A DNA stretch of 29,276 bases from a virus, in the IMG/VR virus record IMGVR_UViG_3300030385_001486, positions 1 through 29,276 of that record. One strand, given 5' to 3'. The notes beneath the pieces were generated by a model, which worked only from the letters and a program-made list of their open reading frames with translations, was not told where the DNA came from and ran no database searches. A program made the translations under genes and the position numbers. Below are positions 508 through 29,273 of this stretch, piece after piece. Positions within the stretch are counted from its first letter, which is position 1; the number at the start of each line of letters is the position of its first letter.

Positions 508-520
508 AATTTCTAGTTGT

Positions 521-712
521 TTAGTTTGTACTATGAATCTTTTTGTTTGCGTATGTACGTTTCATTATGCCTGGTAATGGAGTTAAAGAATCTAACGATG
601 CTCTTTTAATCTTTTTCCAATCTAATGTAAGATTTAGTTCTGATTCTAATTGCTTTAACGTATTGTACATTTCTTGATAATCTTCTTTTGTTGAATGTAT
701 TGTGTACTTCAT
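521..712 (-). CDS. Hypothetical protein, 63 aa
   Basis: Small basic protein, mostly predicted helix in its first 40 residues (KEDYQEMYNTLKQLESEL), with no recognisable domain. Its ATG follows the conserved leader AACAACTAGAAATT. It is the middle gene of the small unit transcribed from the 1046-1080 promoter and is separated from the gene before it by a short hairpin (745-760). Confidence 0.7.
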   Translation of the reverse strand: MKYTIHSTKEDYQEMYNTLKQLESELNLTLDWKKIKRASLDSLTPLPGIMKRTYANKKIHSTN

Positions 713-744
713 AATTTCTAGTTGTTTAGTTAAGTTAAGTTAAG

Positions 745-760
745 GGGAGACTAAGCTCCC
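745..760 (-). terminator. Intergenic hairpin (weak terminator or processing signal)
   Basis: The minus strand reads GGGAG-CTTAGT-CTCCC, a 5-bp stem with 6-base loop, followed by CTTAACTTAACTTAA, not a pure U-tract. It lies between the stop at 766 and the start at 712. A hairpin at 26691-26704 has the same flank (CCCCTTAACTTAA), so the element may be an attenuator or mRNA-stability signal. Confidence 0.4.
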
Positions 761-1017: not shown

Positions 1018-1045
1018 AATGTTTGTTTTTAGTTATTAATGATAT

Positions 1046-1080
1046 GTAAATATACTACAAACAAATGAAAGTAAAAAATT
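1046..1080 (-). promoter_or_regulatory. Early-type promoter P2
   Basis: The minus strand has TTTTTTAC (about 1078-1071), an 18-base spacer counted from the end of the T-tract, then TATATTTAC (1054-1046) and ATATCATTAATAACT. The last block is the same as at P1 and P3. GTGAAAT lies just upstream (1087-1081). It sits between the phosphoesterase gene and three small genes. Confidence 0.7.
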
Positions 1081-3946: not shown

Positions 3947-5707
3947 TTATCTTCTTAAACTTCCTTTATTCGGAGTATCTATTGGTGCTATCGATTCTTT
4001 TCCTTTTTGTACAACGTAAGGATTGTTACCAACTCTCTTTTCGTTTTCCATTCCTTTGTTCGGCAAGAACTTACCAGCATCTTGCTTTCTAAAATATATT
4101 CTTCTCATCCATCCGTGATAGCAATTTACTCCTCCCTTCCACATAAATAAATCATAGGTAGATCTTCCTTTCGGAGCAAAACTGCCGTTAACTCCTGCGC
4201 GACCCATTCGTTTTATATCTTCATATCTAAATTCTATCCCTGAATCCGACATCATAATCATTTGGGTGCAAAAGAGTCTGCTAGGATTCTTAGCGCTTTG
4301 GGAGGCTGTTTTGGTAAATGCATACCGAACTTTGTAGAGACCTTTGTCTCCCCATTTTGACTTTTCACCTACTCTTGAATCTGAAGAATTTGGCATCCTA
4401 TCAAAATGCTCAAACTCCTTATGAAAAGCTGGATTGGTAGTGTCAACGATTTCTTCACTTAATAACTCCCATTCGTCATCATCGTTAACTTCTCCATAAG
4501 TCTCCAATTCATCTAATAGTTCTTGTGACTTATTATCATCTAAAAAAGGACGTTTATCTTTATCAGAACTCATTTTCACTCCTGTCTCTTTCTCTATAGT
4601 GTCCTTGTCGACAACCTCAATATCATCTAGGAACTCTATTGGTTGAAGCGTGATAAAATATATGTCAAGATTAATACTATTAACCTGAAGGACCCTAGTA
4701 ATTGCATCCAATATGATGTTTTGCTTAGGTCTAATAACAGTATTGTCAAACAACTGAGAGGCAACTTTGATTTCTTCGGCATTATTCCCTAAACCTGTTT
4801 TATCTTTAATACCAAATAACATTGGTGATGTTACACGGTGGCCAACTAATATCTTTTTAGTACACTCTTCAGAGAGAAACTTATATTGCTCACTTGCATC
4901 GGAAATAGGTATCTGCTCTATGGTTGTTTGTGATGAAGCATTATCATTGAATGATAAAACGAATTTCTTACCAGCTGTTGATGTAAATTTCTGAGTGATC
5001 TTCCTCTCAATTGCATCTTGTTCCTCTTTAGTTGGCGTTCCATTATTGAAATTTAACATCATTGATGGAGCAAATCCATTTTGAATGTTAGTCAAATGGT
5101 AGTTACTTATTTCCTCATCGATCTCTGACCATTGTAATGATCCTTGATAATCGACAGGAGTAAAGTAGAAGAACCCTGGTGAATACGGTTGTAAGACTAA
5201 TATTTGACTATCACTAGACTTTCTAACGCCATCAAATGCTTCTATTCTAATTGGCTTATATTTGTCTTTTCTAAACTGTGACCAATCGTCGGAATAATAG
5301 TACGCTTTGATCTTACCATCTTCAGCTTTCTCTGGCCTGATATTCTGTATTGGAATATGAGTTGCCTTCTTTATTTCAGTTTTGCCTTTATTCCAAACAA
5401 TGTTGAATGATGCTTGACCTAAAAGTTTAAGATCTAAACAAACTTTCCTTAAGTCCTCATCTTTGAAGATCATCTTTAGTTTAGCGTAATCTAAAGGATG
5501 TTTATTTGCATCTGTTGCTGCTAAACCTTGACCATAGATCATTTCACCTACTCCGGTTATGATAGCATTGTTCACTGCACTACCATTGAACCTCTCAATT
5601 AAGTAATCGTAGTAATTGTTATTCTCTCCATATTCAATCCATTCTCTAGCGGGACTTTCCACTATTTTTGGAGTTGTTACAGAAGCCATGTTCACTAATT
5701 CTATCAT
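3947..5707 (-). CDS. Portal protein with C-terminal extension
   Basis: A 586-aa protein. The core (about residues 1-400) has portal features: YYDYLIERFNGSAVNNAII near the N-terminus, a beta-rich middle, and TSPMLFGIKDKTGLGNNAEE, similar to the helical stem region of HK97/SPP1-type portals. It should form the dodecameric DNA channel at the capsid vertex. The last 150 residues (about 440-560) form an extra domain with CTQMIMMSDSGIEFRYEDI, a segment YDLFMWKGGVNCYHGW and RRIYFRK. I believe this domain is usual in Bacteroidetes phage portals; its job is unknown. The gene lies far from the capsid genes and 3 bases after the 141-aa gene. Confidence 0.8.
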   Translation of the reverse strand: MIELVNMASVTTPKIVESPAREWIEYGENNNYYDYLIERFNGSAVNNAIITGVGEMIYGQGLAATDANKHPLDYAKLKMIFKDEDLRKVCLDLKLLGQASFNIVWNKGKTEIKKATHIPIQNIRPEKAEDGKIKAYYYSDDWSQFRKDKYKPIRIEAFDGVRKSSDSQILVLQPYSPGFFYFTPVDYQGSLQWSEIDEEISNYHLTNIQNGFAPSMMLNFNNGTPTKEEQDAIERKITQKFTSTAGKKFVLSFNDNASSQTTIEQIPISDASEQYKFLSEECTKKILVGHRVTSPMLFGIKDKTGLGNNAEEIKVASQLFDNTVIRPKQNIILDAITRVLQVNSINLDIYFITLQPIEFLDDIEVVDKDTIEKETGVKMSSDKDKRPFLDDNKSQELLDELETYGEVNDDDEWELLSEEIVDTTNPAFHKEFEHFDRMPNSSDSRVGEKSKWGDKGLYKVRYAFTKTASQSAKNPSRLFCTQMIMMSDSGIEFRYEDIKRMGRAGVNGSFAPKGRSTYDLFMWKGGVNCYHGWMRRIYFRKQDAGKFLPNKGMENEKRVGNNPYVVQKGKESIAPIDTPNKGSLRR

Positions 5708-6354: not shown

Positions 6355-6528
6355 CTAAATAGAAAACATGTGAAATTGTTTCCAATATTCTTTTCTAAAA
6401 TAAGCTTTTAATTCGTTCAAAGTGAATAGCTGTTGCCATTGATTGCATTGGCACCTGTAACCTTCTTTAGTCTTGATTACATTATCCGATTTTAGCCAAG
6501 CTTTAAATTCCTCAATATGATAACTCAT
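6355..6528 (-). CDS. Hypothetical protein, 57 aa
   Basis: Reads MSYHIEEFKAWLKSDNV..., with a CQC motif (Cys26, Cys28) and aromatic residues throughout. The ATG at 6528 is preceded by AACAACTAGAAATT, the conserved leader of this genome, which supports it as a real gene. Fills the 6339-6533 gap. Confidence 0.6.
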   Translation of the reverse strand: MSYHIEEFKAWLKSDNVIKTKEGYRCQCNQWQQLFTLNELKAYFRKEYWKQFHMFSI

Positions 6529-6533
6529 AATTT

Positions 6534-6725
6534 CTAGTTGTTTAAAGGGTCATTAACATATTTATGATTCTCTTTTACACTATTAACAAGTATATTGAAA
6601 TCTTCTGTATCAACATCTCTCCTTGTTAACCAAAGAATATTGAATAATTCTTGTTGGATTTGGTAAGGACTTCTAGTTGATAAGTCTTTAGCGATTTTCA
6701 TAATTTCTTGATTGTTGAATCTCAT
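6534..6725 (-). CDS. Hypothetical protein, 63 aa
   Basis: Mainly helical small protein (MRFNNQEIMKIAKDLSTRSP...). The start is set by the conserved leader AACAACTAGAAATT. It belongs to the run of small genes following promoter 7167-7200. Unknown function. Confidence 0.65.
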   Translation of the reverse strand: MRFNNQEIMKIAKDLSTRSPYQIQQELFNILWLTRRDVDTEDFNILVNSVKENHKYVNDPLNN

Positions 6726-6731
6726 AATTTC

Positions 6732-6760
6732 TAGTTGTTTAGTTGTTTAGTTGTTTAGTT
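6732..6760. repeat. Period-8 tandem repeat in leader (TAGTTGTT, 3.6 copies)
   Basis: Reads TAGTTGTT x3 plus TAGTT on the plus strand (AACAACTA on mRNA). It forms the leader of the 63-aa gene at 6725 and also contains the stop of the 55-aa gene (6747-6749). It looks like expansion of the translation leader unit. Confidence 0.85.
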
Positions 6761-6914
6761 TTGAATCTAATTCATTAATAGAATTATCTATCCACCATAG
6801 AAATTTTATGATAGGATTGGAAAGTTTCCATCCTCTATTAAAATTTAATCTATGAGCTAAATTACCGAATTGTGCTGCGTGGTTCTGATTGATGTAAGAA
6901 ATTAACTTTTTCAT
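6747..6914 (-). CDS. Hypothetical protein, 55 aa
   Basis: Reads MKKLISYINQNHAAQFGNLA..., with FLWWIDNSINELDSKL near the end. The ATG at 6914 follows a leader of repeated AACAACTA, as for neighbouring genes. The stop codon lies inside the next gene's repeated leader. Unknown function. Confidence 0.6.
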   Translation of the reverse strand: MKKLISYINQNHAAQFGNLAHRLNFNRGWKLSNPIIKFLWWIDNSINELDSKLNN

Positions 6915-6918
6915 AATC

Positions 6919-6942
6919 TAGTTGTTTAGTTGTTTAGTTGTT
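6919..6942. repeat. Period-8 tandem repeat in leader (TAGTTGTT, 3 copies)
   Basis: Three exact copies of TAGTTGTT (AACAACTA on the mRNA strand) directly before the 55-aa gene, between it and the stop at 6944. Confidence 0.85.
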
Positions 6943-6943
6943 T

Positions 6944-7135
6944 TTATCTTAAGCAGTATTTCTCGATAGTAGCATCGCTTAGGTAGCTACCTTGTAAAGT
7001 GAATAGTCTGTTTCCTTTGTACAATACCACCCAATTCCCTTTTGTAGTCGATTGAACCTTAATATCATTCAAATTCTTGATTGAACCTCTACATGTTTGT
7101 ACGTAGTCTAATAAATGTAATGCTTCCTTATTCAT
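6944..7135 (-). CDS. Hypothetical protein, 63 aa
   Basis: First gene after promoter 7167-7200, with leader AACAACTAGAAATT. It starts MNKEALHLLDYVQTC, and the middle is beta-like (NWVVLYKGNRLFTLQG). No domain is recognised. It begins a set of five small genes placed between the tail tube and portal genes. Confidence 0.65.
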   Translation of the reverse strand: MNKEALHLLDYVQTCRGSIKNLNDIKVQSTTKGNWVVLYKGNRLFTLQGSYLSDATIEKYCLR

Positions 7136-7166
7136 AATTTCTAGTTGTTTAAGTTATTAATGATAT

Positions 7167-7200
7167 GTAAATATACTCTAAATATCTTTAATAAAAAAAT
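7167..7200 (-). promoter_or_regulatory. Early-type promoter P3
   Basis: The minus strand has TTTTTTTAT (7199-7192), then TATATTTAC (7175-7167) and ATATCATTAATAACT, the same layout as P1 and P2. GTGAAAT lies upstream (about 7207-7201). It sits 30 bases after the terminator of the structural operon, so it starts a new transcript through the small genes and probably the portal. Confidence 0.7.
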
Positions 7201-17951: not shown

Positions 17952-18518
17952 TTATTTTACTTTAGCAATTAATTCTTCTGTTGTTGTTTCTTCTTGATCT
18001 ACAAATGACCATAGTGTTATCCATTTTCTTTTTTTAGGTTCAGTTGAAAATGTGAATCCTTCGTTTGTATCGTGTTCATAACAATCTAATATATTTTTTT
18101 GTTCTAGTGAAGATAAAACTCCTCTTAATTTAGTTGCTGGAATTTTAGTTCCTTTTACAATATCTTTAGTATCTATATCTGAATAACCTTCTCCTCCAAT
18201 CCACGGTGCTAAACCATCAAGTAGAAAGTCAAATACTTTGGTTTCCATCTCAGTAAGTTTAGAGTACTTCTGAAAAGGAACTTCAACCTCTTCAGTTGTT
18301 TCGTTTGTGTTAGGATGTTTAGCAACAGCGAAGAGGCTTACAATATCTCTACTAAATATACCTTCAGCAAGGTATTGAAAGTATAGATCTTCGTAATTAA
18401 AGTCTCCTAAGTTATATCCAACGTAAGGAATGATGTCCTTATTCAGTTTAACTCTGTGAGATACTACCGCTGCTAGCATCATTCTTTTTTGAGTTGGTTT
18501 AAGTTTGAAAGTAGTCAT
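17952..18518 (-). CDS. Winged-helix-like protein, 188 aa, in moron-like unit
   Basis: Unrecognised protein with a probable winged-helix region at about residues 112-150 (SDIDTKDIVKGTKIPATKLRGVLSSL, then EQKNILDCY), where two helices precede a recognition helix and a wing. It may bind DNA and act as a regulator; no partner is known. The leader AACTAAAAACTTACATT before its ATG is a near copy of that before the 59-aa gene upstream. Both are transcribed from an early-type promoter and end at a strong terminator between packaging and tail genes. Confidence 0.7.
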   Translation of the reverse strand: MTTFKLKPTQKRMMLAAVVSHRVKLNKDIIPYVGYNLGDFNYEDLYFQYLAEGIFSRDIVSLFAVAKHPNTNETTEEVEVPFQKYSKLTEMETKVFDFLLDGLAPWIGGEGYSDIDTKDIVKGTKIPATKLRGVLSSLEQKNILDCYEHDTNEGFTFSTEPKKRKWITLWSFVDQEETTTEELIAKVK

Positions 18519-18529
18519 AATGTAAGTTT

Positions 18530-18709
18530 TTAGTTGTTGATTTCGATTAATATAGAAAAACCTAGTTTTCTAAGCGATTGGATTGTTCTTATATTGATAA
18601 CTTCCATAGTGTCAATAAATTGAATCTTAGAAGTCATGTTGTAGTTAAATTGCTTAAAAGTTCTTCCTAATTCGATTTGTTCTAATAAATATGTTTGAGA
18701 AGTTGTCAT
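18530..18709 (-). CDS. Hypothetical protein, 59 aa, first gene of moron-like unit
   Basis: Reads MTTSQTYLLEQIELGRTFKQ... and ends KLGFSILIEINN; helical then beta-like. The ATG at 18709 is 28 bases below the -7 element of promoter P4, with leader AACTAAAAACTTACATT. Its stop overlaps the leader of the 188-aa gene. Unknown function. Confidence 0.6.
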   Translation of the reverse strand: MTTSQTYLLEQIELGRTFKQFNYNMTSKIQFIDTMEVINIRTIQSLRKLGFSILIEINN

Positions 18710-18737
18710 AATGTAAGTTTTTAGTTGTTTGTGATAT

Positions 18738-18771
18738 GTAAATATAAGACAAACTCGATTAACCTTAAAAC
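18738..18771 (-). promoter_or_regulatory. Early-type promoter P4
   Basis: The minus strand has GTTTTAA (18771-18765), an 18-base spacer, then TATATTTAC (18746-18738) and ATATCAC. It shares TATATTTACATATCA with P1-P3, but not the long T-tract. It lies just after terL and initiates the 59-aa/188-aa unit. Confidence 0.65.
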
Positions 18772-18799: not shown

Positions 18800-19966
18800 T
18801 TACTTTATTGAATATTTACCTATGTTAGGTCTAGCTTTAGTCATGATAACTGCATATCTGATTGCATCTATAGCATGATTATAATTATCAATAGGCTTAT
18901 TCAATAAATATCCGTTCTTATCCTCTTGCCACTTATAGTTATTAAACTCATTGATCAACGAAGAACTATTAGCTGTTACTTTAAGCTTATATCTCTTTAA
19001 GAGATCAATACCTATATTAATACTATCCTTTCCTTTAGATGCAGGTTTTATATTGAAGCCTAGTCTATATATCTCTTCGATTGATTTAGGCTCTGCAGAA
19101 TCTGCAAAAATAGGTCGTTGTCGATCAAGCCCGTAGTTGTGTAGATGGCGAGCAATATCCTGGTTAGTGAGTCCACGTTCATATATTAGTTCATTAAATA
19201 TTAGAGAGTCTTCTTGCTCGTATACTTCTATTAAAGCAGTGGGATCATTGGTGTAACCAAAATCGAGACCTGTTGCAACTAACTTAGCCTCTTCAGATAC
19301 TTGACCCACTACTTGTACGTCATTAAATATAACTGATCTACTAAATCCACGTTCACCTAATCCGTAGATCTTCCAATACTCTTCGTCAGTTCCTCTAAGT
19401 CTCTCGATTTCTTTAACTAATTCTGCTCCTAAGAATGGATTATCGAGATAGGTTGATTTGATAAACGTGCAATCTTCTCTGGTGATCACTTTGTCGTAGA
19501 TCCAGTGGTGTGAATCAGATGGGTTGTAATCTAAAAAGATCTTAGTCTCAGTTCTAACTAATAACTGAAAGAAATCTTCCCATGTTAATTCGTTAGCTTC
19601 ATTACAGAATAGGTAGTGTCGCTTAGCACCTCTCTTCTTCTGAGGTTGATCCAATGAAATGAACTCAAATAGATTATTGTTAAGCTTATAAGTGTGCTCA
19701 GATTTGTTGTGACAAGATTCGTCATAGAGGTCTAAAGTATTTAAGATCTCAAAGAAGTCTCTCATCACTGATAACTTAAGACTTGGTAACGACTTTCTAA
19801 CAATTGAGAACACGCAGTTAGATACCTCAAAAGATTTGACTATGAGGAGTTGACAGATAGAATAGGTCTTACCAGATCTCGTACCACCTTGGTTTACGAC
19901 AATCTTGGTAGGAGCCTTATAGTTCCTATCGAATACGTTACTCGTTTTTATCTTTAATGTCGACAA
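18800..19966 (-). CDS. terL: Terminase large subunit
   Basis: A 388-aa packaging motor. The N-terminal ATPase has Walker A GGTRSGKT (residues 27-34) and a Walker B-like stretch LFCNEANE (120-127). The C-terminal RNase H-like nuclease shows acidic residues Asp236 (GLDFGY), Asp290 (IFADSAEP) and Asp368 (HAIDAIRY). The arrangement matches the PBSX/Terminase_3-type family. It cuts concatemers and drives DNA into the prohead. It overlaps terS by 29 bases. Confidence 0.93.
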   Translation of the reverse strand: MSTLKIKTSNVFDRNYKAPTKIVVNQGGTRSGKTYSICQLLIVKSFEVSNCVFSIVRKSLPSLKLSVMRDFFEILNTLDLYDESCHNKSEHTYKLNNNLFEFISLDQPQKKRGAKRHYLFCNEANELTWEDFFQLLVRTETKIFLDYNPSDSHHWIYDKVITREDCTFIKSTYLDNPFLGAELVKEIERLRGTDEEYWKIYGLGERGFSRSVIFNDVQVVGQVSEEAKLVATGLDFGYTNDPTALIEVYEQEDSLIFNELIYERGLTNQDIARHLHNYGLDRQRPIFADSAEPKSIEEIYRLGFNIKPASKGKDSINIGIDLLKRYKLKVTANSSSLINEFNNYKWQEDKNGYLLNKPIDNYNHAIDAIRYAVIMTKARPNIGKYSIK

Positions 19967-20312
19967 TCTCTACTTCTATTTTAGTTATCTTATCTCCTTG
20001 TGATGATATATCTAACTCACTACGTTCAGTGTAACCTCGTTTCTTACCTTTAGTTTTTAGGTAGAACATAGTTGATTGTGGATTCCCATCTCTTATTTGA
20101 TCAAACAAAGCTGTCTCTGCAAAGTCTAAAGCTTCGTTTTGAATCTCTTCTACTTCACGTGCAAACTCTGCATCTTCTTTAATCCACTTATAGTAATTAG
20201 TACGTGATAAATTCAATGTTCCTAGAGCGTGCGTAACTACACCTAAACTCTTCTTTAGTGCTTCGATCACCTGCTCCTTCGCGCGCGTTGTTCTATTTTG
20301 TTCTCTCTTCAT
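19938..20312 (-). CDS. terS: Terminase small subunit
   Basis: A 124-aa protein with an N-terminal helix-turn-helix (about 13-45, KKSLGVVTHALGTLNLSRTN, then YYKWIKED) and a helical oligomerisation part (EFAREVEEIQNEALDFAETAL). FYLKTKGKKRGYTER and an acidic tail follow. KGKKRGYxER before the tail is common in phBC6A51/Terminase_2-like small subunits that select the packaging site. Directly upstream of terL. Confidence 0.85.
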   Translation of the reverse strand: MKREQNRTTRAKEQVIEALKKSLGVVTHALGTLNLSRTNYYKWIKEDAEFAREVEEIQNEALDFAETALFDQIRDGNPQSTMFYLKTKGKKRGYTERSELDISSQGDKITKIEVEIVDIKDKNE

Positions 20313-20676
20313 AGGCTTCGTATATTTGTCTCAGCTCTTCTACTGTTTGCTTTACACAGCTTCCACAGCTCGTTACTTTCTTATTCATTCCGAATATCTC
20401 GTTATATATGTTTGTCAAATTTATGTTTTCTTGGTGATCAACTCTATCGCTTCTAATACCTTTAAAGATTCTCCTTAGGATAGACAATTGAGCACTTGTA
20501 ATTTCAGTCTCTCTATCCCACTTATCTATCGGACATTTAGTGAATGCTATTCTAGCTTTTATTTGCATAAAGCAACCACACTTCTTACACTGCTGAGTCG
20601 ACTTTCTAAAGTGTTTACATTTCTTACAGATTGTTAGTCTATCGTTCAAGTTCTTTGTACTCGCTTGCAGCTTCAT
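20293..20676 (-). CDS. Zinc-binding protein, 127 aa (DUF6171-like N-terminus)
   Basis: The N-terminus has paired cysteines C17-x2-C20, C30-x2-C33, C35 and C48-P, in the arrangement CxxCxHF...CxxCGCxM...CPxxKW, as in small zinc-ribbon DUF6171-like proteins. The C-terminus has CGSCVKQTVEELRQIYEAYEE. It links the sigma-like gene and terS with overlaps on both sides. Such genes commonly precede terS in Bacteroidetes phages; the role is unknown, possibly in packaging or late regulation. Confidence 0.7.
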   Translation of the reverse strand: MKLQASTKNLNDRLTICKKCKHFRKSTQQCKKCGCFMQIKARIAFTKCPIDKWDRETEITSAQLSILRRIFKGIRSDRVDHQENINLTNIYNEIFGMNKKVTSCGSCVKQTVEELRQIYEAYEERTK

Positions 20677-21172
20677 CTTTTAGATAGTTTTTAACGTTCT
20701 TTAATGTTGTATAAATTGATGTTGTAGATATATTGGTCTCTTTAGCTAAAGTCCTAATACTTTTACCTGATGAATAATAAACTTGAAATAGTAGTTTATC
20801 GTATTCATGAAGATCTTGAAGTTTGTTATCTATAAAGTCAATTTTGTTTTCTCTTTCTTTATGCCAATCTACATCATCAAATGATTCGAAGTTCTTAATA
20901 TCGAAGTTTTCAGACCTTAAACGAGTATAGTATTTTGTTTTAAAGGTAGAGTTAGATCTAACGTATTGGTTCATCATCACTCTTGCTGTCCAGAAGATCA
21001 AGTGACCATTATCAATTATAGTATTCATCTTTATTGTATCGTATTCTAATATGATCACAAATACATCTTGTGCTAGATCATTTGCATCAGCAACGTTACC
21101 TTTAGTTATCTTTAAAGATAGTTCATTTATTTTATCATAGTACTTGCTAAAGTCTCGCTTTGATTGTATCAT
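20639..21172 (-). CDS. Phage sigma-70-like factor
   Basis: About 177 aa from the ATG at 21172 (an earlier ATG at 21208 is possible but overlaps the HTH gene more). The N-terminal half has the region-2 signature DANDLAQDVFVIILE (compare DxxDLxQEVFLxLxE). Near the C-terminus YDKLLFQVYYSSGKSIRTLA, then KETNISTTSIYTTLKNVKNYL, has the form of region 4 with its helix-turn-helix. It probably directs host RNA polymerase to late promoters (packaging and virion genes) lying downstream. It sits at the early/late border, below a hairpin-rich leader. Confidence 0.8.
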   Translation of the reverse strand: MIQSKRDFSKYYDKINELSLKITKGNVADANDLAQDVFVIILEYDTIKMNTIIDNGHLIFWTARVMMNQYVRSNSTFKTKYYTRLRSENFDIKNFESFDDVDWHKERENKIDFIDNKLQDLHEYDKLLFQVYYSSGKSIRTLAKETNISTTSIYTTLKNVKNYLKDEAASEYKELER

Positions 21173-21299
21173 AACGTGTTTTGAATGCTTCTTTAGATAT
21201 TGAAACATTATACTTTGTTTTCAATATATTCTTTATCTTAGTAGGACTTAATTTGTTTCTAATTCCTAATAGGATTTCTTGGTTTAGGATTCCTCTCAT
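21147..21299 (-). CDS. Small helix-turn-helix protein, 50 aa
   Basis: Uses the ATG at 21299 (MRGILNQEILLGIRN...). The longer frame from 21362 runs through a terminator hairpin and is less likely. Residues 18-50 (SPTKIKNILKTKYNVSISKE, then AFKTRYDTIKARL) look like a helix-turn-helix. It lies between the terminator-like hairpin and the sigma gene and may help control the switch. Function is inferred only. Confidence 0.5.
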   Translation of the reverse strand: MRGILNQEILLGIRNKLSPTKIKNILKTKYNVSISKEAFKTRYDTIKARL

Positions 21300-21317
21300 T
21301 TCTATTCTTTTTAAATT

Positions 21318-21350
21318 AAAAAAGGATCCAAGTCTATTGACAGGGATCCT
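21318..21350 (-). terminator. Terminator-like hairpin ahead of the sigma gene
   Basis: The minus strand has AGGATCC (21350-21344) and GGATCCT (21329-21323) as a perfect 7-bp stem with an inner GTC-AATA-GAC stem, followed by TTTTTT. It would end the early transcript, or act as an attenuator for a transcript started at the 21391-21398 promoter. Confidence 0.8.
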
Positions 21351-21364
21351 CTTCGTAAACAACT

Positions 21365-21382
21365 AAAAACCAGATGACTGGT
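21365..21382 (-). promoter_or_regulatory. Palindrome ACCAG-TCAT-CTGGT near a transcription start
   Basis: A 5-bp inverted repeat with 4-base loop (21369-21382), followed on the minus strand by TTTTAG. It lies 9 bases below the -7 element at 21398-21391, where the transcript start would be. It could be an operator or a small hairpin at the RNA 5' end. Confidence 0.45.
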
Positions 21383-21390
21383 AGGTATTA

Positions 21391-21398
21391 CAAATATA
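21391..21398 (-). promoter_or_regulatory. -7 element TATATTTG (perfect TAnnTTTG)
   Basis: The minus strand reads GTTATATTTGTAATACC. TATATTTG matches the Bacteroidetes -7 consensus fully, better than the P1-P5 set. A clear -33 TTTG at the right distance is not seen. It is placed to transcribe the HTH, sigma and packaging genes. Confidence 0.5.
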
Positions 21399-21439: not shown

Positions 21440-21571
21440 CTAAGATCCACATGCTTCGCAGTCTTCATTATCTATAGCGCAAACTTCAGGTTGAGGTTTG
21501 TCTTCTAAAGAACCTAACCAATCATCGAAATTTACATCTTTCACTTCTTTTACTGTTTCAGTTTGTTTCAT
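21440..21571 (-). CDS. Small acidic protein, 43 aa
   Basis: Reads MKQTETVKEVKDVNFDDWLG... and ends DNEDCEACGS, with three cysteines in the last 14 residues. Last gene before the early terminator. Unknown; the C-x6-C-x2-C cluster might bind metal. Confidence 0.5.
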   Translation of the reverse strand: MKQTETVKEVKDVNFDDWLGSLEDKPQPEVCAIDNEDCEACGS

Positions 21572-23764: not shown

Positions 23765-23998
23765 TTAAAACATTTTTAGTTGAGTTTGTATTATCTTAAT
23801 TTGAGAAGCTCTATAATCTATTTTGCCAAAGTATACCTTTAGACCATCGATAACATCTCCAACCTCTACACTTAAAGGTCTCTTTTTATTGTCATACCAA
23901 TTAACGATATCACCATCACTTAATTCAAGCATATAAGTCTTAACATACTCATATTTCAATTGCTTGAAAGGAAGTATTTTAGTCACAGTTGCTTTCAT
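23765..23998 (-). CDS. Unknown 77-aa protein inside the modification cassette
   Basis: Beta-rich small protein (MKATVTKILPFKQLKYEYVK, GDIVNWYDNKKRPLSVEVGD), which could be an OB-like barrel; no family recognised. The ATG overlaps the hydroxymethylase stop (ATGA) and its own stop is 1 base from the dCTPase start, so it is translated with them. Its place between two hmC enzymes makes it a candidate accessory factor. Confidence 0.65.
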   Translation of the reverse strand: MKATVTKILPFKQLKYEYVKTYMLELSDGDIVNWYDNKKRPLSVEVGDVIDGLKVYFGKIDYRASQIKIIQTQLKMF

Positions 23999-24660
23999 AG
24001 TTTCTGAATATAGTTTTTAGTTTTCATGTTGAAGTGTCTTTCATAAACATGTAAATTCTGTGCAAAATGAATATACTGACCAGGTTTACAATCTAAACTT
24101 TTACAAACCATATTTAGTAATTTAATAAAGCAATAAGTATCATTGCAAAAACCATATACTAAATCGTTAGATCTCATCATGACAGTCATATTAAGTTTAT
24201 CACTATCTGGAGTAAAGTAGAATTGGATTGATAAAGTACAAGGAGTATCTTTAGAATATTCTTTATGTTCTTTAGCATCGTAAATAGATACAACTGCTTG
24301 TCTAGTATATTTATCTTTAGCTAATTTCTTAATAACATACTTCAGTTGATCATTCCTCATCCATTGATAACCATAGTTACTGTTAACATAACCACGCTCA
24401 TCCATGTGATTGTACCAAATATTAGCTGTTTGAGCCATGATACTTGCATCTCTATCTCCACTTAGATACCATTCCCATTCTTGTTGAGCATAGTCTATAT
24501 TGAATTTACGCCAAGGAGTCTTAACGACACACTCTGTGGTATCTAATATAGTGAACATTTGATTGTATATTGCTTTCGTTCCTTGTACGTCTACACCTTT
24601 CTCTAAGATCTTATCGTACATTGTTTCAAAAGCTTCAGTTACTGTTTTGAAGTTCCACAT
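23995..24660 (-). CDS. dCMP hydroxymethylase (T4 gp42-like, thymidylate synthase fold)
   Basis: A 221-aa member of the thymidylate synthase superfamily, near T4 gp42 in size (about 246). Key residues: Glu61 (EWEWYLSGD), VNSNYGYQW (92-100), Arg120 (YTRQAVVSIY), catalytic Cys141 (DTPCTLSIQF), phosphate-binding Arg163-Ser164 (MRSNDLVYGF), Asp174 (FCNDTY) and His204 (NLHVYERHF). In thymidylate synthases the position of Asp174 is Asn (E. coli Asn177), which reads uracil; in T4 gp42 it is Asp179, which selects cytosine. The enzyme should convert dCMP plus methylenetetrahydrofolate to 5-hydroxymethyl-dCMP. A dCMP methyltransferase remains possible. Confidence 0.85.
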   Translation of the reverse strand: MWNFKTVTEAFETMYDKILEKGVDVQGTKAIYNQMFTILDTTECVVKTPWRKFNIDYAQQEWEWYLSGDRDASIMAQTANIWYNHMDERGYVNSNYGYQWMRNDQLKYVIKKLAKDKYTRQAVVSIYDAKEHKEYSKDTPCTLSIQFYFTPDSDKLNMTVMMRSNDLVYGFCNDTYCFIKLLNMVCKSLDCKPGQYIHFAQNLHVYERHFNMKTKNYIQKL

Positions 24661-24814
24661 CTTTTAGTTGTATTGGGTATTTAATTCTACTTCCTTTAAT
24701 TGAGCACATATAAACTTCTCTACCATCATAGAGAACTATTAGATCATGACAAGTACCTTCATACTTTTGACCTAACCAGGTAAATTTAACTTGTAAGCCT
24801 TTTAAATTCCTCAT
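24635..24814 (-). CDS. Small protein, 59 aa, between glucosyltransferase and hydroxymethylase
   Basis: Reads MRNLKGLQVKFTWLGQKYEG... and is beta-rich, with VLYDGREVYMCSIKGSRIK. It begins 29 bases inside the end of the glucosyltransferase and ends 26 bases inside the hydroxymethylase start, so the three are probably translated together. It looks like a small SH3-like or OB-like barrel; function is unknown. Confidence 0.6.
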   Translation of the reverse strand: MRNLKGLQVKFTWLGQKYEGTCHDLIVLYDGREVYMCSIKGSRIKYPIQLKDVELQNSN

Positions 24815-25766
24815 GTTGTTTCTTTATTAGTTCGTTACTATAAGCATTTACTAAATTTCGTACGTCTTGCTTAGATCTAACGTACAGTAGTTTTCTTAAT
24901 TCCGGATCCTTAATGATCGTCATATCTCGATCGTATTGAATCGGTATAGCTGCTAAACAATTTGAAGCTAAAGTTTCATATAATCTAAAAGTGATCACAT
25001 TGTTTTCATGTTCAGCATCTCCTAAAACTAAACTAACTTTGCACTGATCAAGCTTGTGCATCAAGTCAGCATGTTTAAGTTTCTTAGTATATGGAACATC
25101 AACTTTATTAGTTTTGTATCCTATAAGTAATGATTTAGCATTTTGTGGCATGTATTGTTGTACAAGTTTTTCTCTATGAGAACCTCTACGATCTCCATAA
25201 TAAACTACATCATGCCTTTTAGGTATCAACTCATCAATTGCTGGTTCTAATAGCTTACCAAAGATCTTCCCAAAAAAGTCGAACTTAGATACCTTGACTG
25301 TTTTATACTTTTCGTCATTCCAAAATTTAGCTAAGTCATTACCTGGAAATAAGTAAGTTGCTCTATGTAAGTGTTCTTCCCAATTGAGTACTTCGTCTTC
25401 TGTAAAAGTATCAGCTTGTCTTTCATTGATCTTAACAGCTGGATTTGTTGGTTTGATTCTAGGATCAGTACATAATATAGCTAAATCATTTTCATAGTTA
25501 GCCATTTTACGAATCTTCTCAATAGTATCATCACCAATAACTCCACCAAAGAAATTAGGTTGACTTAACTGAATGATCACTTTATCATAGCAATTAAGAG
25601 ATTTCGTTTCAAATATATCTTTAAACTTTTCAAAGTTCTTATTAGTTCTACCAGCTTTACCGATCAAATCCATATTATAGGTTTTAGATAAGTAAACTGA
25701 TTCAAGACCAGAGTGATTGTTTTCTACACACTGAATATTTGAATAAATGTTGATTAGTGCTTTCAT
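24786..25766 (-). CDS. DNA beta-glucosyltransferase-like enzyme (T4 beta-GT homologue)
   Basis: A 326-aa GT-B fold candidate that aligns by eye with T4 beta-glucosyltransferase (351 aa) over most of its length. YDKVIIQLSQPNFFGG (60-75) corresponds to T4 YDRLIVVNSSINFFGG. LCTDPRIKP with Asp101 corresponds to LFTDIRLP with catalytic Asp100. VVYYGDRRGSHREK (187-200) corresponds to VIYGGSFRSGQRESK. SLVLGDAEHENNVITFRLYE (245-264) and TLASN correspond to ALIIGDKNYNDNFITLRVWE and TMASD, including the UDP-glucose-binding Glu. It should transfer glucose from UDP-glucose to hydroxymethylcytosine in DNA. It begins the cassette whose next enzymes supply hmC; sugar and linkage are not proven. Confidence 0.85.
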   Translation of the reverse strand: MKALINIYSNIQCVENNHSGLESVYLSKTYNMDLIGKAGRTNKNFEKFKDIFETKSLNCYDKVIIQLSQPNFFGGVIGDDTIEKIRKMANYENDLAILCTDPRIKPTNPAVKINERQADTFTEDEVLNWEEHLHRATYLFPGNDLAKFWNDEKYKTVKVSKFDFFGKIFGKLLEPAIDELIPKRHDVVYYGDRRGSHREKLVQQYMPQNAKSLLIGYKTNKVDVPYTKKLKHADLMHKLDQCKVSLVLGDAEHENNVITFRLYETLASNCLAAIPIQYDRDMTIIKDPELRKLLYVRSKQDVRNLVNAYSNELIKKQHEEFKRLTS

Positions 25767-26238: not shown

Positions 26239-26451
26239 TTAATTTAGAAGGTTTAAGTCTACTAACTTGTTCACTAAAACGACACAATGTTTTGCGTCTT
26301 TAATTACTTTGCCATCCAATTCTAATACCCATTTAGAAGATCTTCTACTAAACCAAATATTAATATCGTGAGTTTCGTTTTCAACATTGAAGATACCATC
26401 TCTTAACGAGTTGAAGTCTTTAATTTCTTGTAATAATTGTGTTGCGTCCAT
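26239..26451 (-). CDS. Hypothetical early protein, 70 aa
   Basis: MDATQLLQEIKDFNSLRDGI, then INIWFSRRSSKWVLELDGKV, a helix then beta-hairpin layout; no family recognised. The ATG follows CAACTAGAAACT, a variant of the conserved leader. It lies in the operon starting at promoter 26934-26967. Confidence 0.65.
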   Translation of the reverse strand: MDATQLLQEIKDFNSLRDGIFNVENETHDINIWFSRRSSKWVLELDGKVIKDAKHCVVLVNKLVDLNLLN

Positions 26452-26473
26452 AGTTTCTAGTTGTTATTGTTAC

Positions 26474-26668
26474 TTAAGCTTGTTCGTCAAGACTAATTTC
26501 GAATTCTAAATTTAATTCGTTTAACTCATCTGTGAAGGTGAAGAAATGACTTGTAGATTCGAAGATAAAAATGTTTGAACCATCTTGCTCGAAGCTTAAC
26601 TCTAAGTTATTCGCTATATTAATAGCTTGTAAAGTATCTCTTAACGAAGTTTCAATTATTAAAGCCAT
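26474..26668 (-). CDS. Hypothetical early protein, 64 aa, acidic
   Basis: Starts MALIIETSLRDTLQAINIAN and is acidic at the C-terminus (FEISLDEQA). Its middle (LSFEQDGSNIFIFESTSHFF) loosely resembles the same part of the 64-aa protein at 29076-29270, so the two may be distant paralogues. Leader AACAACTAGAAACT. Function unknown. Confidence 0.65.
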   Translation of the reverse strand: MALIIETSLRDTLQAINIANNLELSFEQDGSNIFIFESTSHFFTFTDELNELNLEFEISLDEQA

Positions 26669-26690
26669 AGTTTCTAGTTGTTTAAGTTAA

Positions 26691-26704
26691 GGGGCCGAAG
26701 CCCC
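26691..26704 (-). terminator. Intergenic hairpin with UUCG tetraloop
   Basis: The minus strand reads GGGGC-TTCG-GCCCC, a 5-bp stem with a very stable tetraloop, followed by TTAACTTAA rather than a U-tract. It lies between the 62-aa and 64-aa genes. The flank CCCCTTAACTTAA is shared with the hairpin at 745-760. Attenuation or mRNA protection is more likely than full termination. Confidence 0.5.
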
Positions 26705-28254: not shown

Positions 28255-28629
28255 CTATTTCAATTTAAAGTTATCAGCTTCATCTTCACTGTAATGGCCA
28301 AGTTCGTAGAACCCAGTAAGCTTTAATACTGCTCGACTCATAGCACGTTTCTCAGCCATAGCGACAGGGTATGCGTTTGAAGTATTCCCAGGAGAAGCTT
28401 CACCAAATGTTTGGATTCTTTGTTCACCATTCCCAGCAGTCGCTTTTATAATGATGCACTTGTTATCTGCTGAATTATGAATTAAGTCATAATGTATCTC
28501 AATATGGTTTTTAGCTTGTATCTTATCGATACCTCCTCTTGAAATAATTGTGTAGAACTTATGCTTAAAGATATCGTCTGGCGTCAAACCATTCTTTTTG
28601 TAAAGTTCATTTAGTTTTTTCGCGTCCAT
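28255..28629 (-). CDS. Conserved phage early protein, 124 aa, unknown
   Basis: Contains a segment with YTIISRGGIDKIQAKNHIEI and TFGEASPGNTSNAYPVAMAE, then KRAMSRAVLKLTGFYELG. The AEKRAxSRAVLKLxGFYE pattern recurs in Bacteroidetes phage proteins near replication genes and loosely recalls phage recombination (Erf/Sak-like) proteins, but I cannot confirm that. The ATG follows AACAACTAGAAACT, the conserved leader. Confidence 0.65.
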   Translation of the reverse strand: MDAKKLNELYKKNGLTPDDIFKHKFYTIISRGGIDKIQAKNHIEIHYDLIHNSADNKCIIIKATAGNGEQRIQTFGEASPGNTSNAYPVAMAEKRAMSRAVLKLTGFYELGHYSEDEADNFKLK

Positions 28630-28634
28630 AGTTT

Positions 28635-28829
28635 CTAGTTGTTTGTTATTGTTTTAGAGAATTCATATTCTTGAATTGTACCGTTAGTTGGGTTCTTATC
28701 TCCGTTAGACCATGCTTGGTAAATTTCACAACATCTTGAATACTCGTCGTTTAATTGTTGTTCTATCATCTCATCACGATCTAACTGCTGAATTCTTGTG
28801 TTTAAAAATAATTCTTTTAGCTTTCCCAT
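28635..28829 (-). CDS. Hypothetical early protein, 64 aa
   Basis: Charged helical protein (MGKLKELFLNTRIQQLDRDE, then EQQLNDEYSRCCEIYQAWS), with adjacent cysteines. It starts 1 base below the stop of the 67-aa gene. Not recognised. Confidence 0.65.
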   Translation of the reverse strand: MGKLKELFLNTRIQQLDRDEMIEQQLNDEYSRCCEIYQAWSNGDKNPTNGTIQEYEFSKTITNN

Positions 28830-29075: not shown

Positions 29076-29270
29076 TTACCACTTACAGAAATTAACGTGA
29101 TGTGGGTTTACTTTAGCAGCTTCAACTAAATCAAATAAAGTGAAGAATAAGGAATCACTACCACATTCGATATATATTTTACCGTCTTCAAATTTAGTTT
29201 TGATATAATTAAATCTGTTAGTGTTAAGAGCGTGTTGGATAAAAGCGTAGTCTTTAGAAGAGTAAGTCAT
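29076..29270 (-). CDS. Hypothetical early protein, 64 aa (complete copy)
   Basis: MTYSSKDYAFIQHALNTNRF, then FEDGKIYIECGSDSLFFTLF; unknown. First gene of the early operon. Its promoter is at 124-157 on the circular map. The only upstream bases in this copy (29271-29276, aatagt) match the left copy for 3 bases and then differ. Confidence 0.75.
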   Translation of the reverse strand: MTYSSKDYAFIQHALNTNRFNYIKTKFEDGKIYIECGSDSLFFTLFDLVEAAKVNPHHVNFCKW

Positions 29271-29273
29271 AAT
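29176..29273. repeat. Terminal direct repeat, right copy
   Basis: Identical to 1-98. The last three bases of the window (agt, 29274-29276) do not match 99-101 (tta) and may be an assembly end artefact. Confidence 0.95.

Follow-up and report, generated by a model that had tools for sequence, protein, structure and literature searches.

The usual explanation of the early-to-late switch of a phage is a transcription factor. In the PR'-tR' arrangement of phage lambda, on which Q acts, a terminator stands immediately behind the promoter, at the junction of the early and late genes and ahead of the packaging genes. IsrK, a trans-acting RNA of the Gifsy-1 prophage, stops at an intrinsic terminator of its own, and read-through of that terminator yields the mRNA for downstream phage regulators, in a manner tied to late regulation (PMC4825925). 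It activates a single target, its own read-through mRNA, by refolding (PMC4825925). The c4 RNA of P1 and P7 is a 77-nt antisense phage RNA that pairs with a ribosome-binding region and blocks translation; its target is the ant mRNA and its role is immunity (PMC12197685). In Listeria, SreA and SreB are terminated leader RNAs of a downstream gene that are reused as trans-acting sRNAs (PMC4825925).

The locus described here lies in a 29,276-base virus record, the whole of which was analysed and is called the window below; the phage belongs to a group of uncultured phages of Bacteroidota type. Its genes are on the minus strand, with the early and replication genes at the high-coordinate end and the terminase and structural genes at lower positions. 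The record probably covers almost a whole genome, circular or terminally redundant, since a 98-nt repeat lies near both ends (bases 1-98 are identical to 29176-29273). A thymidylate synthase-like gene (23995-24660, minus strand) adjoins a beta-glucosyltransferase-like gene (phrog_7922; 24786-25766, minus strand), a pair that may point to modified phage DNA. Between the early genes and the terminase genes, a promoter is followed by a terminator-like hairpin and then by a helix-turn-helix (HTH) gene and a sigma-like gene. Like IsrK, this leader would give rise to both a terminated RNA acting in trans and a read-through mRNA, as predicted here from sequence; unlike IsrK, its candidate pairing segment (the seed) matches many separate gene starts, the predicted outcome is repression, and the search of Rfam returned no family match for the leader RNA, the only hits being at chance level and far below gathering scores. 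It resembles c4 in its predicted pairing at translation starts and differs from it in having many targets in the genome and a seed that follows a shared start motif. SreA and SreB are bacterial SAM riboswitches, whereas no ligand-binding structure is seen in the phage leader. In contrast to lambda, no clear Q gene or Q-binding site was found, and the regulator behind the terminator is an ECF-like sigma factor. The leader further differs from IsrK, c4 and SreA/SreB in its position ahead of a sigma-terminase operon, and by sequence it is a member of none of them. A literature search gave IsrK and c4 as the nearest systems and nothing on these phages; a leader sRNA with many targets in its own genome is apparently undescribed.

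The reading that we favour, with a probability of about 0.6, is that region 21398-21318 serves both as a regulatory RNA unit and as the leader of the HTH-sigma-terminase operon, and that the terminated RNA represses the phage's own genes in trans. The parts of the leader are as follows.

21391 to 21398, minus strand: Bacteroidota-type -7 promoter element TATATTTG, of the TATATTTG or TATATTAGCA type in relatives
21369 to 21382, minus strand: 5' hairpin of the leader RNA, ACCAG-TCAT-CTGGT, not conserved in sequence
21357 to 21370, minus strand: seed directed against start regions, GTTTTTAGTTGTTT, predicted to be unpaired
21318 to 21350, minus strand: intrinsic-terminator-like hairpin AGGATCC...GGATCCT with an inner GTC/GAC stem and U6
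21318 to 21386, minus strand: predicted 69-nt terminated leader RNA, the proposed sRNA, with approximate predicted ends

The initial annotation had described a -7 element, a palindrome at the likely start site and a 7-bp hairpin with U6. The first is present as TATATTTG at 21398-21391, in a promoter for which no good -33 TTG element was seen. The hairpin also stands (21350-21323): AGGATCC at 21350-21344 pairs with GGATCCT at 21329-21323 around an inner 3-bp stem, and T6 occupies 21323-21318. The palindrome is found at 21382-21369, but the transcription start considered there was 21391, which is the last base of the -7 element; the start is expected about 4-8 nt further on, at about 21387-21383, and the palindrome would therefore lie near the 5' end of the RNA. 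An operator role for it is unsupported because its sequence is not conserved: the relatives L012 and L002 have different hairpins, and most other lineages have no comparable one. From the expected start to the end of the U-tract, the RNA would measure 69 nt, a size typical of sRNAs (50-250 nt), with its own promoter and terminator, all judged by sequence features. It is predicted to fold into the 5' hairpin, an open seed (mean probability unpaired 0.82) and the terminator, a predicted layout that is the usual build of a base-pairing sRNA.

The operon behind the leader comprises the following genes.

21147 to 21299, minus strand: 50-aa HTH protein, first gene behind the terminator (model of three helices, pLDDT 91.7)
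20639 to 21172, minus strand: ECF-like sigma factor, 177 aa
20293 to 20676, minus strand: Zn-ribbon protein (DUF6171-like), a conserved neighbour
19938 to 20312, minus strand: terminase small subunit, TerS (phrog_309, 5e-7)
18800 to 19966, minus strand: terminase large subunit, TerL

The small HTH and sigma-like genes are thus where they had been annotated, the former as an ORF at 21299-21147 and the latter at 21208/21172-20639, with the ATG at 21172 as the conserved start. The sigma-like protein matches the phage sigma family phrog_1740 (E=8.7e-7), and a Sigma70_r2 match is found in 12 of its 17 family members (best 2.1e-5), the window protein itself falling below the Pfam cut-off. The top PDB matches returned by Foldseek for its AlphaFold model (pLDDT 70) are ECF sigma factors. 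By profile and model, the protein is ECF sigma-like, with both region 2 and region 4 folds predicted; its matches to Q families are weak and at the HTH level (PF06530, E=0.012; phrog_79, E=0.009). The three-helix model of the HTH protein (pLDDT 92) has no convincing relative in the PDB, and the protein has no Pfam family. Relatives of the sigma, HTH and Zn-ribbon proteins were fetched from viral contigs in several searches. HTH, sigma, Zn-ribbon, TerS and TerL are consecutive in the window and in L002; in L005 and L012 the Zn-ribbon gene is separated from TerS by other small genes. No relatives were found in cellular genomes, nor any prophage with the HTH-sigma block, and cultivated phages yielded neither a sigma relative nor a relative carrying that block.

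The stretch between the two hairpins (21370-21357, minus strand), GUUUUUAGUUGUUU, is complementary to a repeated start motif, UAAACAACUAGAAAUUAUG, that precedes about 14 of the 56 phage genes. Repeat analysis gave CTAAACAACTAGAAATTATG on the coding strand before many genes, and the seed GTTTTTAGTTGTTT is the reverse complement of AAACAACTAAAAAC, a form related to CTAAACAACTAGAAATTATG. On the coding strand, AACAACTA occurs 20 times against 1.9 expected, and AGTTGTTT only 2 times. When the coding strand of the window was scored for complementarity to all start regions, the leader came out as its best anti-start segment (score 63, next 26, among 29,194 scanned positions). Pairing at or below -13.5 kcal/mol is predicted for 14 of 55 gene starts vs 5 of 530 internal ATGs, and pairing at -12 kcal/mol or better for 15 of 56 starts, a count reached by none of 300 shuffled seeds; because the targets form one repeat family, their matches are not independent and these counts overstate the evidence. 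Relative to the start codon, the predicted duplexes usually extend from about -19 to about -4. The starts of the terminase, tail and portal genes are not among the strong matches. An open stretch between hairpins that is complementary to the phage's start motif argues for a trans-acting sRNA, and not for an attenuator alone. Predicted targets include the following start regions.

18710 to 18744, minus strand: start of gene 18530-18709, with a 14-nt perfect complement, AAACAACTAAAAAC, and its own promoter, TATATTTACATATCAC
18519 to 18553, minus strand: start of gene 17952-18518, with a 13-nt complement; the L002 orthologue, with AAATAACTAAAAAC, matches the changed seed
26669 to 26703, minus strand: start of gene 26474-26668 (-20.5 kcal/mol)
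28630 to 28664, minus strand: start of gene 28255-28629 (-17.0 kcal/mol), no promoter element nearby
26452 to 26486, minus strand: start of gene 26239-26451
508 to 542, minus strand: start of gene 181-507
713 to 747, minus strand: start of gene 521-712
1018 to 1052, minus strand: start of gene 766-1017, with its own promoter
6529 to 6563, minus strand: start of gene 6355-6528
6726 to 6760, minus strand: start of gene 6534-6725, with tandem 8-nt motif copies
6915 to 6949, minus strand: start of gene 6747-6914, with tandem 8-nt motif copies
7136 to 7170, minus strand: start of gene 6944-7135, with its own promoter

Other features were seen around these starts. The tandem copies of the 8-nt unit AACAACTA, at 6739-6760 and 6926-6947 (minus strand) before two small genes, look as if the start motif had been multiplied. 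Four similar promoters, TATATTTACATATCA, stand directly before the start motif at 92-140, 1014-1062, 7135-7183 and 18706-18754 (minus strand), and two promoters of this kind are also found in the L002 genome. A GGGGCTTCGGCCCC hairpin at 26691-26704 (minus strand) lies just upstream of a target start region, and a similar one precedes the gene at 712; such hairpins are possible terminators or processing sites.

Given that the targets of the window are one repeat family, support for the sRNA reading has to come from repetition across genomes. The L002 seed, AGTTATTTT, is matched by start regions of its own genome, AAATAACTAAAAAC (14 nt), CAAAATAACTAAAA (14 nt) and AATAACTAAAAA (12 nt), one of which belongs to the gene after terminase, whose orthologue in the window (17952-18518) carries AACAACTAAAAAC. 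The L142 seed CATAGTTAGTTT is matched by the start motif AAACTAACTATG, the L132 seed CTTCTTAGTT by AACTAAGAAG directly before an ATG, and the L185 seed has a 16-nt perfect match to a start region of its own genome. When seeds were swapped among 11 genomes, own seeds fitted own starts better than exchanged ones (p=5e-5); the lineages, having common ancestry, are only partly independent. Within the coding strand, the leader ranks first as an anti-start segment in L002 (29; next 16), L012 (18; next 17), L132 (15; next 10) and L185 (18; next 16), and it is near the top in L142 (3 of 19,917 scanned positions equal it), L134 and L150. Pairing energies at gene starts did not differ significantly from those at internal ATGs in L005, L062, L074, L125, L126 and L151, and the L105 seed is partly paired in the predicted fold. 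Ten more distant genomes, which have a related sigma gene (35-37% identity in part of the group) and no such leader at the locus, gave mostly low-complexity A/T matches.

The architecture of the leader is kept in every inspected locus that has the HTH gene and enough upstream DNA, i.e., about 30 loci with 18 distinct leaders. The conserved order is a -7 element (TATATTTG, TATATTAGCA or a close variant), a U/G-rich stretch containing AGTTGTTT or a variant of it, a G+C-rich hairpin, 5-10 T and the HTH start codon. Hairpin sequences vary among the 18 leaders, and all fold at about -15 to -21 kcal/mol and are followed by at least 5 U. In an alignment of 14 leaders, both partners have changed in 7 of 9 stem pairs, and covariation scores 0.613 vs 0.322 in shuffles; none of 500 shuffles reached 0.613, and all slid versions scored lower. 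The set was restricted to these 14 because MAFFT aligned the most divergent leaders poorly; the leaders of the window and of its closest relatives, L002, L012 and L005, lie outside this set and were folded singly. The attenuator-like leader is real, and the changes in its stem indicate that selection has maintained a hairpin of the intrinsic-terminator kind between the promoter and the gene. Since this hairpin separates the promoter from the HTH-sigma block, transcripts from this promoter must pass it, as had been proposed for sigma expression in the initial annotation; the conserved promoter, hairpin and U-tract precede the whole HTH-sigma-Zn-ribbon-TerS-TerL block. Distant sigma relatives (the L007 group) have no such leader at the sigma locus. 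A scan for the promoter and seed as a DNA pattern returned 17 contigs, nearly all of them chance matches in coding-looking DNA. One, L094, presents another context: on an unrelated-looking phage contig, at 5496-5600 of the reverse-complemented locus, a promoter, TTTTTTAGTTGTTTT and a terminator-like hairpin lie divergent to an operon of structural appearance and may be a free-standing version of the leader RNA.

The leader could regulate only its own operon. Its hairpin would then stop most transcripts, antitermination or read-through would time sigma and terminase expression in the manner of lambda PR'-tR' with Q, and the seed would be a spacer or the site of an antitermination factor. In its favour, the terminator is conserved and in every case separates the promoter from the first gene, at the early/late junction and upstream of the terminase block. 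Such a device leaves unexplained, however, that no other segment of the genome is as good an anti-start sequence as the spacer and that the spacer covaries with the start motifs, and neither a conserved antiterminator structure nor a leader peptide was found, so that we regard attenuation in cis as the whole function as unlikely. A leader peptide is improbable because the window leader has no ATG. Antiterminator pairing of CCTAACAA with TTGTTAGG is confined to leaders of the L061/L062 type and is absent from the window, L002, L005 and L012. In the L062 leader (about L062 2890-2995), CCTAACAA close to the 5' end could pair over its full length with TTGTTAGG within the left arm of the terminator, and may be an antiterminator limited to that subclade. 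A start motif with a 15-codon ORF at 21374 on the opposite strand is not kept in relatives.

The seed might instead pair with the HTH start in the read-through mRNA, in the manner of c4 or IsrK, with all other matches being by-products of the shared start motif. In one subclade (L131, L136, L140, L143, L149/L150), the HTH start does carry AAAACAACT(A), complementary to the seed, with -15.4 kcal/mol in L150. Yet the window, L002, L012 and L142 show no such complementarity of the HTH start (-3.1 kcal/mol in both L002 and L142), and in these four genomes the seed is still matched to other genes, which makes this autoregulation in cis improbable as the main role.

There is very little chance that the motif is a DNA operator, bound by the HTH or sigma protein and inverted in the leader. 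The HTH gene adjoins the leader, and four copies of the motif in the window lie directly behind strong promoters. Nevertheless, there is no -7 element close upstream in 10 of the 14 strongest targets, which also indicates that the start motif is not a promoter site, and the position of the motif is fixed relative to the ATG, with tandem copies at an 8-nt period.

Finally, an ordinary terminator of the upstream early operon beside a chance-like U-rich spacer, with no regulation, is hardly credible: that operon (RusA and a 43-aa ORF) is codirectional and has its end about 40 nt upstream of the -7 element, but such a terminator would have no need of a promoter ahead of it in all 18 leaders, or of a seed that covaries. 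The 43-aa ORF (21440-21571, minus strand) has a conserved C-terminal Cys tail, CAIDNEDCEACGS, and in L002, L005, L142 and others a small protein encoded upstream of the leader finishes with a tail of this kind. Near the same position, the L126 genome has a 47-aa ORF with a seed match in its start region.

Under the favoured reading, in which the terminated leader RNA acts in trans, the host-type promoter would make mainly a short RNA of roughly 69 nt that stops at the terminator hairpin and U6. The seed would pair with the start motif of twelve or more genes of the phage itself and block ribosome loading, so that these genes would be repressed when the leader promoter fires. The silenced set would consist of small phage genes, a predicted glucosyltransferase gene and the two genes that directly follow terminase. 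Read-through of the terminator, or transcription from upstream, would produce the HTH, sigma and Zn-ribbon proteins and terminase, and one promoter would thereby couple the shut-down of one gene set with the late and packaging programme. Autoregulation would be added in the subclade whose HTH start can pair with the seed as well. Little is known of phage RNA regulation in Bacteroidota, the presumed host phylum. Ribosomes of this phylum initiate without Shine-Dalgarno pairing and depend on adenines upstream of the start (-3, -6, -12, -13) and on reduced structure (PMC9976891). One can reasonably presume that a seed duplex blocks initiation, because starts of this type need unstructured regions and upstream adenines.

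In its fuller form, the proposal is that a small RNA terminated in the sigma-terminase leader switches off a dozen or more genes via a phage-specific start motif, and that seed and motif co-evolve as a private translational code tying early shut-off to late onset. We consider this wider claim about as probable as its opposite. The relatives supply natural variants of seed and motif, which makes compensatory mutants simple to design. If the proposal is true, the leader RNA would be a multi-target regulon sRNA acting on the phage's own genes: a single RNA would silence a phage gene set via the shared start motif, and its read-through would start the late programme.
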